Virus record (IMG/VR): IMGVR_UViG_3300046171_000042
Coordinates: 1-31,318 of that record
DNA: 31,318 nt
Source of the DNA: a virus
Reading direction: 5' to 3' (one strand)
Positions 2,467 to 29,099 of the stretch are shown here, piece by piece. Under the pieces are notes generated by a model. That model was not told where the DNA came from, made no database searches, and worked only from the letters and a program-made list of their open reading frames with translations. Position numbers and translations under genes: made by a program. Numbering within the stretch: the first letter of the stretch is position 1; each line of letters starts with the position of its first letter.

Positions 2467-3458
2467 TTATATTATTAGTTCGCCTTTGCTGTCATACCAA
2501 TCAGGATTGACATAAGACCATTGATGACGACAATTATAACCACCTCGAACAATTAAAGGGTTTCCAGATTTTTTACCTTTCCAACTTCTACTTGTCCAAA
2601 GTGCATTGACTTCATCAACTGTGAAAAGTCCACTTTTCCTCTTGTTATATACTCCATTAATTATATTTCTGCAATGATCTCTAGTGGTAGGTATTACATC
2701 TCCATAATATTTAACAAAAGTTAAACCAGCGTCTTGAGATTTATTAAAGTTTAAGGTTGCATCAAAATCTCTTAGTGAATCATTAAGTATTTGACCAGCA
2801 TATCTTTTCATATTTTCTCCAGCCCTATCTCTAGCAAATTTAGATTGTAATGTTTGAACAGACTTATCAACTTCTGCTTGTTTAGACTTATCAGAATTTA
2901 TTTCTATTTATATAAGTAATCAATCTAGTTATTTCTGGGTCATCTGCACTTGCATAAATACCATTGATTGTTTGTCTTAGTTCTTTTTCTAATACTGCAA
3001 ACTCGCTACCAACTAATGTGTTTTGATAAACCTTTTCTGATAGTCGTCTTGTAAATGTATTAGATACATCTTTAAACTGAGTAAAGTATTGTTGCTTTAA
3101 ATTTTGTACTAATGCTAGATCGCCTTTAGTTAATTCTTGAAACTCTGGTGGTATATTACCAATTAACTTAAATGCTTTTTCAATTCGTTTAGCTTGTTTA
3201 TTAAAACCCTCTCTAACAACTGTATCTGACCATTTAAGATATTCTCTTTCAAGAATAGCTTTTATCTGTGGTCTTATTGCTATAGCTGATTGTAGTTCAA
3301 TTAACTTACCATCTGTTAAAGGTAATCTACTAGCAAGAGATACTACTTCTCGTTCTATTCTATCTAATGTTGCAATTAATGTTTTATAATATTCAGCTTC
3401 AGCTAAGTTCTATTTGCTTGATTCGATATAATGTTGCTTTTTTAACTTTATCTGCCAT
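2467..3458 (-). CDS. MuF/SPP1 gp7-type minor head protein, broken by two frameshifts
   Basis: Minor head protein that attaches to the portal and enters the head with DNA. The C-terminal 114 residues (2811-2467) carry the signature of the MuF domain: TRDHCRNIINGVY, LWTSRSWKGKKSGNPLIVRG and GGYNCRHQWSYV. The upstream part starts MADKVKKATLYRIKQ at 3458 and continues through LASRLPLTDGKLIEL and FTRRLSEKVYQNTLVGSEF in a second frame. One extra base near 3405-3412 and one near 2893-2906 break the gene. Removing both gives 329 residues, a normal length. The span of 992 bases (3n+2) fits exactly two single-base insertions. Located between portal and capsid as expected. Start is uncertain because no good ribosome binding site is seen. 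Confidence 0.75.
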
Positions 3459-3511
3459 TTGTTCTAATTTTGTTCTACTAAAAGTTTAGCATTTACTAGG
3501 TTTTAATTTAT

Positions 3512-3540
3512 TTGACCTTTATATCAATTTTTACTAATAT
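3512..3540 (+). promoter_or_regulatory. Sigma-70-type promoter of moron gene
   Basis: TTGACC (3512-3517), a 17-base spacer, then TAATAT (3535-3540). This is the best consensus promoter I found in the window and is placed to give a short leader before the gene at 3564. It reads against the surrounding late genes. Confidence 0.75.
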
Positions 3541-3563
3541 TTATATATAAAAAAGGAGAGAGC

Positions 3564-3812
3564 ATGAACAAACAAAAAATCAAAACTAAATACGAAAAAA
3601 CTTGGGATGCACATAATGTTCAAGTAATTTTGAATGGTGTTAAATTTCCAAAAGAAAGAGGCGAATGGTATAGACCATCTGCTGAAACTGAAAGTGATGC
3701 AAAAGCTAAAGCTACTGAATGGGCTATTGCAGAATCTAATGGTAAATATCTTTCTTCTGGTGGAATGATTTACAATTCAAAAAAAGAATTTTTAGATTTA
3801 ATAAATAATTAA
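3564..3812 (+). CDS. Moron-like 82-residue protein of unknown function
   Basis: A plus-strand gene between minus-strand portal and minor head genes. It has its own promoter (3512-3540), an AAGGAGAG ribosome binding site before the ATG, and an intrinsic terminator (3832-3856). The product is soluble, with no signal peptide or membrane segment. It shows an N-terminal beta-type segment (WDAHNVQVILNGVKFPKERG), a Trp-rich middle (GEWYRPSAETESDAKAKATEWAIAE) and a C-terminal glycine turn followed by a helix. I do not recognise a family. Independent transcription unit, opposite strand and insertion between conserved head genes are the classic moron arrangement. Such genes usually affect host defence, superinfection or host physiology, but nothing here shows which. 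Confidence 0.85.
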   Translation: MNKQKIKTKYEKTWDAHNVQVILNGVKFPKERGEWYRPSAETESDAKAKATEWAIAESNGKYLSSGGMIYNSKKEFLDLINN

Positions 3813-3831
3813 TTAATAAACTAATGAAAGA

Positions 3832-3856
3832 GGCGATCTTTATGGTCGCCTTTTTT
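3832..3856 (+). terminator. Intrinsic terminator of moron cassette
   Basis: GGCGATC (3832-3838) pairs with GGTCGCC (3844-3850), seven pairs including one G-U, over a five-base loop, followed directly by six T. The reverse strand has no T run after the stem, so it acts only on the plus-strand gene and should not stop late transcription. Confidence 0.85.
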
Positions 3857-5268
3857 ATATCTGCTCTTGCTCTACTTCTTGATCTTCTTGTGCTGGTTCG
3901 TCTTGTGTGAACTGACCTACTTCTGCTTGCTTGGTCTATCTCATCAAATATTTCATTTAGTTTATTATCATCATCAACAACTGCTCTAGCTATTTCTTTA
4001 TCAACTTCTTTAGCAAAAGTTGGAGAGCCAATGTTTAATGCTTTAGCTTGTTGGAAGTACATAAGATCACTTGCGTAATCTCTAATGTTAAATGAATCTG
4101 GATAATTAATTTCTCCATCAAATGTAGCATCTTGGAATAAAGCATATAGTCTAAATAGTTGTTCTTCTGCTATTTGTAAGTTGTCAGCTTTCTCAGATAG
4201 TCTAGCATTTAATAATTCAAATTCTGTTTGTAGTGCAACACCAGATGTTATTCCTGTCTTTTGAGTTCTAACAGCACCCGTATGTGCAATTCTGTTTATA
4301 GAATTTACTTTGCTGTTTATAGACTCCATAATAGCTTGTAAGTTTTGGCCAGATGGTTGAAGTAAATATGGTTTTAAGTTTGGCTCAAGTTCATCAGGCA
4401 TTTCTATTACTGCACCAGCACCAGCACTAGCATTTACACTTGGAGTTTTAACTAATGATGGGTGGTTAGTTAATCTGATTAATTGTTCCATTTCAGAGTA
4501 TTCGTTGTAAATAGATTTTTGTAGATCAGCAATATCAGTTAAATCTGATTGACCTATTCCTCTTTTGTGTGATTTAGCATTGTATAAAATAACTGCTGGT
4601 ATTTTACCAATCATGTTTGGAACACTATCTATCAATCTAGGCTCTGATCTTTCTTCCATGTAAATAGTATCTATTCGATCTGGATACCAAATTCTCATGT
4701 AAGTTCCACCATTTCTATCTACTTCTTCTCTAACTTTTAAATAGTTTAATTCATACTTACCATTAACTTGTCTTTCAAAGTTCCAATCTAAAACATTCTC
4801 AGGAGTAACGATTGATAAGTATGGTCTAATATCTTGATCTAATTCTTCGGCTCTAGTGTTTGTAGTTACATTAGGTTTATCTAACATTAAAAAACAATGA
4901 CCATAAATAGACGCATAGTTTTGAGCCTGTTTAATTACAGAGTTTAAATTGTTACCCTCAAGGTCAGCATCTTTTAAGAATGATTCTAAACTAGGTTCAT
5001 CTTGCATAGAACCAAAATCTCTACTTGGTCTAACTCTAAAAAGGAATGATGAATAAATTTGAATAATATTTTTACAATGGTTATCGCATGGAGTGTTAGC
5101 TAGTCTTTGATTGAACTCGTTATCTAATTCTAAATTATATCTGTTTAGGTATTGGCCTATCATGTAATCATAGCCACCATTGTATGATCTAATATAATAC
5201 TCCCAATTATTAATTGTTTCGGAGTAGTCTTTGTGGGTGTCTAATGCTTGATCTCTAGTGTATGCCAT
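3855..5268 (-). CDS. Portal protein, with a frameshift near the C-terminus
   Basis: The portal forms the dodecameric ring at the head vertex through which the terminase pumps DNA. The frame starts MAYTRDQALDTHKDYSETI, continues with IIQIYSSFLFRVRP, a core containing GIGQSDLTDIADLQKSIYNEY (first 20 residues of this typical portal wing region) and TGAVRTQKTGITSGVALQ, and lies directly after the large terminase (4-base gap). The longest open frame runs on to 3736 through an Arg/Ser-rich stretch. The credible end is in another frame: QAEVGQFTQDEPAQEDQEVE and a stop at 3857-3855. One extra base at 3924-3934 explains this; the span 1414 is 3n+1. About 470 residues when corrected. Confidence 0.85.
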
Positions 5269-26521: not shown

Positions 26522-27135
26522 TTAGAGTGCTTCTTCTACATCAAATTCAAATTGATATAAAGCATTACCATCTTTATCTGCACCAGCTACACCAAACTCT
26601 TGAACATCATTTGTTAAGTGAACTGTAAATGGAACATTATCAAAAGTTATATTTGATGAAGAAACTGCTGTAGTTAAAGGTGGCTCAATAGTTAGAGTTC
26701 CTGTTGAAATATCTGAACATCTGCTACAATCATATATACTTTATCATGACTAGCAAATTTTATAAAATCTCCTGACTTAAATGCGTGTGGATTATCATTG
26801 TGGTGTCCGTCCATAGCAATCGTTGTATCTCCTACTGCGTGAACACCATTAACTCTTACTGTATTTGTTTCATTACCTCTAGCATCTTCTACTTCTGGTG
26901 GGATTATAGTAAAGTTTTCTTTGCCTGATCTTTGTTTAACTATAAAGGCCATTAACTCTCCATAAACATCTGATCTAGTTGCTGTAACAATACGAACAGT
27001 AAAAGCCCATCTTTGATTGTCTATTTGTCTAGCAAGTTTCTTACCAGATACAGTTTTTGAGATAATAGTATTTTGAATAGACTTTATTCCTAAAGATTCA
27101 AACTTAGCAGTAGATATTGGAAAAGCACCTGACAT
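26522..27135 (-). CDS. Tail protein after tape measure, with one frameshift
   Basis: Starts MSGAFPISTAKFESLGIKSI in a TAATG overlap with the tape measure. It has SKTVSGKKLARQIDNQRWAF, ELMAFIVKQRSGKENFTIIP and NPHAFKSGDFIKFA. The uninterrupted frame stops at 26692, but the sequence continues convincingly in another frame (SDISTGTLTIEPPLTTAVSS, FTVHLTNDVQEFGV, YQFEFDVEEAL) to 26522. A base missing at 26714-26724 (probably from GATTGT, giving ADCSD) restores a 204-residue protein; the span 614 is 3n+2. Its position is that of a distal tail protein. Confidence 0.7.
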
Positions 27136-29099
27136 TAGATTAAGTTTTTACTCCCTCTTTCATTAACTGCATTATTAATTAATTGTGTAATAGTTCCTCT
27201 TGATCTTACAAGTAATTCTTCAAAGCCAGAAGCATCTACTGTATTGATATTAAAATTAACTGTTGTAGCACCACCCCCTGTGCCTCTTGCTGATTGTGTA
27301 ATTTGTCCTGTTGAGTTCGGTACAAACATTTCTGGCCCATTTTCTCCAACTACAATTGGTTGTCCTTTTGATACTGCACCACCTTTAGCCATACCAAAGG
27401 CTTTACTAAAAGAACCAAAAAATGAAGCACCTTGTAAAGCTATTTGTTTTCTTTTCTCATTTGTAATCATTTTTTCTATAGCTAATTCTACACCTTTTCT
27501 TGCAACAACTTCAATTAATGAACTTATTATATTTGCTAAAACATTTTGTGCCATACTTCTTAATGTATCTGATAATTTTTCTCCAAAAACAAATGCTCTT
27601 GCAAGACCCTCTGACATTTTTGTAATACCACTATTAATACCCTCTTTAATAGTAGTTGATACATTTGTAAATTTCTTTTCAAGATTTTTTAAAGCAGTTT
27701 CATTCATTTCTTGGAATGTTTCTTCTGTTTTTTTACTTGCATTAGCCATTTCAAACATATGATGATTAGACATAGATGTAAATTTAACTATTTCTTTTTG
27801 TTCTTCTTTTATTTTTTGAACATTATTTGCCATTTCAAACATATGATGATTTGATTCTGATAAAACACCATTTTTAATTTTTTCAAATTTAATAAAATCC
27901 TCAAGTTCTGATTTTTGTTTTCTTAAAGTTTTTAATTGATCTTCACTTAATTTATTATAATTTTCTACAATTATTGTTCCTTTATTTCTTACATCTATAA
28001 ATTCTAATTCTTTTTTTAACCCATCTTCTAATTGTTTATTAATTTCTGCTAATCTTATTTTTGCTTCTTCAATATTGGCAACATCAATTAAACCACTTCC
28101 AATTCTTTCTTTTTTTAATAAATCACTAACTTTATCAATTACAAAACTTATTCCAGCTAATCCTACTGCACCTTTTTTACCCAATAAAAATGCTCCAATT
28201 ATCCCAACTTCCCTTGCAAATTCTGGCATAGCCATAAATCCATCAAAAATACTTTTTAAACCTGAACCTATTTTATTTATTGTAGGAATTAAATCTTTAC
28301 CTACTTGAACTACTCTTACCATTCCTTGTGCTAGGTTTTTGCCAACTGATGTTGCAATTCTATCTATATCTTTTGCATTATCTTCCAAAAATTTATCTAA
28401 ATCTCCAAATTGTTTTTTTAGTTCTTCAAAAAATCCAGCTTCTAATAATACCTTTTTAAAATTAAATACTTTATCTCCTATCATTGATAAAGTACCCTCA
28501 AATGTTTGTGCTAATTCATCTGTTGCTTTACCAAATCTTCCACCCTTACCAAATACTTTTTCAAAGGCTTGTACTGTTTCTTCAATAGATACAGTTGCAC
28601 CAGCTTTAAACCCAAGCATATTTCTAACACCTTTTTCTCTAAATATATCTGCTGAACCTATACCAGCACTAAATGATCTTTGTATTTGTTCTCCAGCAGT
28701 TCTAAAATCTAATCCTGTAACTGATGCAACATTCCCTGTTATCTCTAACATTTTTTGTAAGTCATCAGCATTGTCTGTAACTGTTGCAAGAATACCAGCA
28801 CCAGCCTGTATTTCCTCAAGTGAAAAAGGAACTTTAGATGCAAATTTCGACATATTGTCAAATGCCTTTTGCACCCTCGTTTGTATCTTTAAGTAAGAAC
28901 TTTAATCTAGTTCTTAAATTCTCTAATTGCTTTCCTGTATTAACTAAATTTCTAACAACAAGCCCAGCACCTAAACCTAAAAAGCATTTCTTAAATTAAA
29001 TACAGAATTTTTTAATCTTCCTAAAGATTTTTGGACACCATTTAAAGCCTGTTTAGACTTATCTCGTGCTACAATATCTATATTGAGTTTTTGTGTCAT
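27135..29099 (-). CDS. Tail tape measure protein, broken by two compensating indels
   Basis: Sets tail length and leaves the tail at infection. The start at 29099 (MTQKLNIDIVARDKSKQALN) is coupled to the chaperone stop. One base is missing from a run of five T (28979-28983) and one G is extra at 28864-28868; corrected, the protein has 654 residues. Known features: N-terminal helical region with FASKVPFSLEEIQAGAGILA, hydrophobic middle (VGIIGAFLLGKKGAVGLAGI), long coiled coil, then the tape measure end motif VVGENGPEMFVPN. The stretch NHHMFEMAN occurs twice. The span 1965 is a multiple of three, as expected for one gain and one loss. Confidence 0.85.
27745..27851. repeat. Pair of 23-base direct repeats in tape measure gene
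   Basis: The same 23 bases stand at 27745-27767 and 27829-27851, 84 bases (28 codons) apart, and encode NHHMFEMAN twice. The spacing is in frame, so gain or loss of a unit would change tail length by 28 residues of helix. Confidence 0.75.

Follow-up and report, generated by a model that had tools for sequence, protein, structure and literature searches.

An antisense cassette between the portal and MuF genes

The window analyzed here is the whole of a 31,318-base virus contig (IMG/VR record IMGVR_UViG_3300046171_000042), which is assigned to the group of Pelagibacter phage HTVC111P, i.e., pelagiphages whose hosts we take to be the ocean bacteria of SAR11. Using the intact portal of a close relative as the query (91% identical to the contig's own portal), we observe portal identities of 82–90% to HTVC111P, HTVC112P, HTVC202P and HTVC026P, and the order of the genes in the head region of the contig is that of HTVC111P. 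The contig also encodes both an exonuclease (PHROG 298) and a RecA-dependent-nuclease-like protein; a search for RNA families and tRNAs found none, and a profile search that was positive in 14 of 14 control genomes found no match to the phage-integrase family PF00589 in the contig. Indels break the portal (3736–5268), MuF (2467–3458) and tape-measure (approximately 27135–29099) frames, all of which are intact in relatives, with an indel near the 3′ end of the portal gene leaving the portal end out of frame in the contig. In addition, scaffold and capsid, which are separate genes in relatives, are fused in one 520-residue open reading frame (ORF; 891–2453). These broken frames and this fusion look like sequencing or assembly errors in the contig.

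The two core genes flanking the region under study can be delimited with the intact genes of related loci (L002–L005). The MuF-like gene has its start codon at 3456–3458 (minus strand), from where the intact MuF of these loci aligns, and which is the core-gene boundary on the promoter side of the cassette. The portal, which ends ...EQI-stop in the same loci, has its TAA stop codon at 3855–3857 (minus strand) in the frame common to relatives. Our analysis of the 396-base intergenic stretch confirmed the arrangement proposed in the initial annotation, where a promoter, a ribosome-binding site, an 82-codon ORF and a plus-strand terminator lie between portal and MuF and are opposed to the late genes.

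The cassette has its own predicted sigma70-like promoter, made up of a −35 element seen in the sequence as TTGACC (3512–3517, plus strand) and, after a 17-nt spacer, a −10 element TAATAT (3535–3540, plus strand). Both lie in a conserved promoter/leader block, TTTATTTGACCTTTATATCAATTTTTACTAATATTTATATATAAA (3507–3551, plus strand), which includes a perfect palindrome, TTTATATATAAA (3540–3551, plus strand), that spans the expected transcription start and is possibly an operator. A Shine-Dalgarno sequence, AAGGAGAG (3553–3560, plus strand), is followed by the 82-codon gene (3564–3812, plus strand), with its ATG at 3564 and its TAA at 3810–3812. Downstream, an intrinsic terminator (3824–3858, plus strand) is predicted as a 15-bp stem with the loop TTTAT, where the stem core GGCGATC (3832–3838) pairs with GGTCGCC (3844–3850), and the run of six T (3851–3856) does overlap the portal stop codon, as had been claimed. 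The fold energy of this hairpin is −20.5 kcal/mol (z = −6.8), and none of 200 shuffles was equally stable. A consensus terminator scanner gave no call at the hairpin, which is probably explained by the stem pairing onward into the T run. We also noted a 15-nt inverted repeat, 93% complementary, that flanks the ORF at 3545–3559 (ATATAAAAAAGGAGA) and 3846–3860 (TCGCCTTTTTTATAT); it may be incidental, with several other cassettes disrupting it by leader insertions.

When the intergenic stretch was shuffled 2000 times by mononucleotides, one shuffle contained an ATG-initiated ORF of 82 codons or more. A protein 80–90% identical to the one encoded here, represented by two distinct versions, is present at four IMG/VR loci in the same place and orientation, and the promoter, Shine-Dalgarno and terminator DNA is almost identical at these loci. 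The dN/dS between members of this family is 0.24–0.80, i.e., mildly purifying on few changes, and supports a coding ORF. At a fifth locus, L105 (fetched a second time as L154), an 89-residue homologue that is 46% identical lies behind the same leader. The description of this gene as belonging to no recognized family holds: the protein and the 46% identical homologue have no match in Pfam, PHROGs or PADLOC, a profile search of the PDB returned a best E value of 0.37 to an unrelated protein, the family has no match among the cultured phages of our phage collection, and the collection of bacterial and archaeal genomes yielded no homologue. Structure prediction had been proposed in the initial annotation. 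Using close homologues only, the AlphaFold model was poor (pLDDT 49), and adding the distant homologue to the alignment raised it to a pLDDT of 72 and a pTM of 0.57, with the predicted order β-β-β-α-β-α for a soluble protein. The fold itself could not be recognized, with Foldseek searches of the PDB and of viral models returning nothing at E < 0.1. AcrIIA4 was considered as a structural match and rejected as noise (E 3.1).

A slot with a conserved frame and diverse cargos

We surveyed the portal-MuF junction in the best 80 of 422 portal-matched loci, plus four cultured phages. Of the 80 junctions that could be resolved, 49 were empty and 31 occupied, a ratio that is not a population frequency, as it describes the best 80 of 422 relatives with near-duplicate contigs included. 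Empty junctions read ...ATATAGATGAATGGC... or ...ATTTAATGAATGTC..., and the portal stop lies a few bases from the MuF start. For example, the junction is empty in HTVC112P and HTVC026P, and it holds gp32 (152 residues, minus strand) in HTVC111P and gp29 (70 residues, minus strand) in HTVC202P. Presence in some relatives and absence in others, between the same two genes, is a feature of morons, and the moron reading of the initial annotation is strongly supported by these empty junctions and by the other genes found in most of the remainder; the gene is not one that all relatives conserve as part of the head module.

Our BLASTP comparison sorted the cargos into 31 ORF families, all antisense to portal and MuF, where one family is the second ORF of a two-ORF cassette (the L068/L070 type) and a single ORF is usual. 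With boundaries taken from ORF calling, the cargos span approximately 60–215 codons. The first leader is common to 17 of these families, and the block TTTAT-TTGACC-17-TAnnnT-TTATATATAAA is almost invariant over all 17, which are otherwise unrelated. The pattern TTGA(C/T)(C/G)-17-TAnnnT is present in every one of them; because the search pattern included the −35 region, part of the conservation seen there was selected for in advance, whereas neither the −10 box nor the palindrome formed part of that pattern. The −10 element varies in relatives (TAGATT, TAAATT and TACATT) with T1, A2 and T6 retained in 17 of 17 families, which is how a genuine −10 element should behave. GGAGAG is located 3–5 nt 5′ of the ATG in 16 of the 17, the remaining family having GAAAGAGAG, and in all 17 the 3′ end of the Shine-Dalgarno lies 3–5 nt from the ATG. 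It is this conservation among relatives that makes the promoter convincing; a hexamer match in this AT-rich DNA is by itself no better than chance (7 such sites in 2.5 kb, with 12.6 expected from shuffles).

Systematic scans placed the frame at this one junction. The leader scan identified 51 contigs, which after deduplication gave 47 places among the fetched loci, all adjoining MuF and/or portal, and the terminator scan identified 52 contigs and, after deduplication, 51 places, all compatible with the portal-MuF junction. Wherever there was enough flank, MuF lay upstream and portal downstream, and the truncated places were compatible with this order. In the HTVC202P-type cassettes one terminator stem pair is changed on both sides, from G-C to C-G, i.e., a compensatory change. 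The leader occurs once in the contig and once, without mismatch, in HTVC111P, where gp32 follows it (once per genome in the two genomes tested), and its pattern was found in none of approximately 85,000 bacterial and archaeal genomes. We rejected the idea that the leader promoter is a phage-wide early promoter, since neither the contig nor HTVC111P holds a second copy.

The constant frame is not universal, as other leaders are present in the L037, L078, L081 and HTVC202P types and some cassettes, namely L022 and those of the L036 family, have no such terminator. Another leader type, AAACGCAAAAAGTGTTTTAGTGTCGCATC, unrelated to the first, was identified in 15 contigs; it too is located at the portal-MuF junction and adjoins MuF in 12 of the 12 places examined. 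This second leader (L037, L078, L081, L150 and L156–L166) is associated with at least 8 other cargo families, and the usual terminator is mostly absent there. HTVC111P gp45 hinted at another antisense slot, ahead of the tape-measure gene, and examination of this position in the contig showed no convincing antisense gene.

The clear PHROG matches of the cargos are families of unknown function, none of 25 cargo representatives matches a known defense family in PADLOC, and a structural-family search gave no match apart from a marginal one (E = 0.043). Since none of 30 cargo sequences contains a membrane-type hydrophobic or signal-like segment (maximum 19-residue hydropathy 1.31), we judge the cargos to be probably cytosolic. 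The L061-type family recurs as HTVC026P gp07, in an operon with a helix-turn-helix (HTH) regulator and outside the structural module. Several families have conspicuous sequence features. L023, L034 and their relatives encode a cargo with paired cysteines (CVICGKG...GSECYKK or CCICNKG...GSECGKK) and a zinc-ribbon-like look, without a library match; L037, L158 and L160 encode a 181-residue cargo with a conserved RLIHDMAH motif that resembles a metallopeptidase-like HxxxH signature; and in the cargo of approximately 200 residues present in L036, L059, L066, L095 and L111, the C-terminal half is similar to an uncharacterized domain (PHROG 2319 and 3628; 183 phage records) that many phages of Klebsiella and Vibrio encode.

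Exchange of cargos and their possible role

Examination of individual pairs of loci demonstrated two complementary patterns. Unrelated cargos lie behind 96–99% identical upstream DNA (100 bp to the start codon) in L064/L082, L052/L098 and L061/L118. Conversely, near-identical cargos sit in diverged flanks: cargo identity is 0.97 in L101/L127 (MuF 0.76, portal 0.80), 0.97 in L080/L099 (MuF 0.79, portal 0.84) and 0.96 in L110/L134 (MuF 0.78, portal 0.92). L024 and L052 share the same cargo and the same spacer after it, with different leader variants. Taken together, these two patterns identify the ORF itself as the swapped unit, and it is very probable, judging from the sequences compared, that this junction is a fixed slot with a constant expression frame in which ORFs move from phage to phage separately from the core genes on either side. 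The simplest placement of the crossover points is within the leader and at the terminator. No convincing direct repeats or target duplications were found at the cassette ends. On balance, the mosaic patterns favor homologous recombination as the simplest route of exchange, and the exonuclease and RecA-dependent-nuclease-like protein encoded in the contig are in keeping with it.

These observations can be assembled into a mechanism. Co-infecting phages would exchange cargos by homologous recombination, with the shared leader, the terminator and the neighboring core genes serving as arms. Host RNA polymerase would transcribe the cargo from its own promoter, with no need of the switch to phage late genes, and the terminator would keep the cargo transcript out of the portal gene. 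A pelagiphage RNA-seq study covers HTVC022P and HTVC027P (PMC12753301) and, as these belong to other groups, gives no timing for the HTVC111P-type slot. The cargo itself would be a small cytosolic effector acting on a target that differs from one host strain to the next, the likeliest being a defense protein or other host protein, and such a target would explain the turnover of cargos, their absence in many relatives and the lack of sequence relation between them. Overall, we consider it likely that HTVC111P-type SAR11 phages possess a fixed moron slot and that the cassette is one of its fillings.

The reading of the cargos as effectors is based on their small size, solubility, high turnover and optional presence, on their own promoter, and on the one cargo family found in a regulatory-type operon. 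Modulation of host defense, one of the functions suggested in the initial annotation, is a plausible role for predicted proteins of this kind, and counter-defense or host takeover taken together fall a little short of an even chance as the cargo function. The 82-residue gene is one of these interchangeable inserts, and its product probably aids the phage against particular hosts. A more speculative extension, which we put forward tentatively, is a dedicated plug-in slot, kept by a widespread lineage of SAR11 phages, where leader and terminator act as both expression socket and homology arms, the single ORFs that are swapped encode a reservoir of small inhibitors, about 30 or more and as yet undescribed, directed at functions or defenses of SAR11, and a phage regulator possibly exerts control via TTTATATATAAA.

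We weighed the effector reading against four other explanations. The cargos could be superinfection-exclusion or lysogenic-conversion proteins that shield the infected cell from related phages, which would fit the classical moron layout of own promoter and own terminator (PMC4378225) and the numerous related phages with differing cargos. However, the lack of any hydrophobic or signal-like segment sets all 30 cargo sequences apart from typical membrane exclusion proteins and, of the superinfection control that had also been suggested, disfavors the classic membrane type; signs of lysogeny are absent, i.e., no integrase was found in the contig and no leader in the bacterial and archaeal genomes scanned. 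We regard this explanation as unlikely. A role of the cargos as accessory proteins of the virion or of head assembly, antisense among the head genes by happenstance, is suggested by their position between portal and MuF but is highly improbable, as the cargos are missing from most relatives whose head modules are otherwise intact, lie on the wrong strand for the late operon, comprise approximately 30 unrelated sequences sharing one site, and match no structural family save for the marginal hit mentioned above. An element that is mainly regulatory, where an antisense promoter and terminator adjust the transcription of portal and MuF and the ORF is a bystander, would account for the promoter and terminator being the most constant parts and being opposed to the late genes. 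Such an element is hard to reconcile with ORFs that are complete in every case and that, in all 17 families, begin 3–5 nt downstream of a Shine-Dalgarno, with dN/dS below 1 in the 82-residue family, with a predicted terminator that would stop the transcript at the portal end, and with the lack of the element in more than half of the surveyed relatives; we give it very little weight. Finally, a chance ORF or assembly artefact, which the indels in neighboring genes and the chance-level promoter match might suggest, is almost certainly wrong, as assemblies of other samples have this gene at the identical position and the leader found here also precedes a homologue of 46% identity.

With some 30 fillings of one slot, constant arms, recent swaps and many empty sites, the route by which morons are exchanged becomes testable here. 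The slot also yields a list of approximately 30 small undescribed proteins from phages of SAR11, which is among the most abundant bacteria of the sea, and leader plus terminator provide a simple sequence rule for finding further cargos. If the cargos do act in counter-defense or host takeover, they would be pointers to unknown SAR11 defenses.

Comparison with known systems

Integron gene cassettes are interchangeable promoterless ORFs behind a fixed promoter, and the slot resembles them in its way of working only. It is not a member of that class, as the contig encodes no tyrosine-recombinase integrase and the cassette ends carry no repeat pair resembling recombination sites.

A moron is a coding region flanked by a promoter and a terminator and located between two genes that are adjacent in relatives (PMC4378225, PMC3029335). 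Like these, the cassette contains a single ORF with its own promoter and terminator, here predicted, between genes adjacent in relatives. Its G+C content is 27.6%, with 31.6% for the contig (the 8th percentile, with the ORF alone at the 20th percentile), a slight and uncertain difference from its neighbors. It differs in that the promoter/leader and terminator are constant and approximately 30 unrelated ORFs are exchanged between them, whereas a classical moron is inserted as a whole unit. Our literature search on pelagiphages and morons found no publication combining both, and the slot is not described in the available portions of two papers naming HTVC111P; the original description of HTVC111P was outside the search and may mention gp32.

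The regions of genomic plasticity of Pseudomonas Mu-like phages, including the anti-CRISPR region RGP G, are likewise fixed sites with small accessory ORFs; those regions are low in G+C, and part of their cargo is anti-CRISPR (PMC4378225). For Mu-like phages, no flanking sequences were found to explain moron acquisition, and the mechanism has been called mysterious (PMC4378225). The pelagiphage slot, in contrast to these regions, where no shared flank was recognized, has an evident shared leader and terminator, and similarity to anti-CRISPR proteins is shown for none of its cargos. The anti-phage hotspots of P2 and P4 also combine high gene turnover with two conserved flanking phage genes (PMC9122126), but are 1–5 kb regions beside cos that hold defense systems of prophages and satellites, whereas the pelagiphage slot holds mostly one ORF of approximately 60–215 codons, with 0 of 25 representatives matching PADLOC and no signs of lysogeny. 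A parallel to the arrangement of leader and cargo is seen in anti-defense genes of archaeal viruses, where diverse small genes are located behind one conserved early regulatory sequence upstream, by which they were identified (PMC11065993), just as 17 families here share one leader; the pelagiphage motif differs in being present once per genome (two tested), at one slot. Set beside these systems, the slot is a predicted moron hotspot with a fixed frame, and its new part is this constant frame with interchangeable ORFs at one site.
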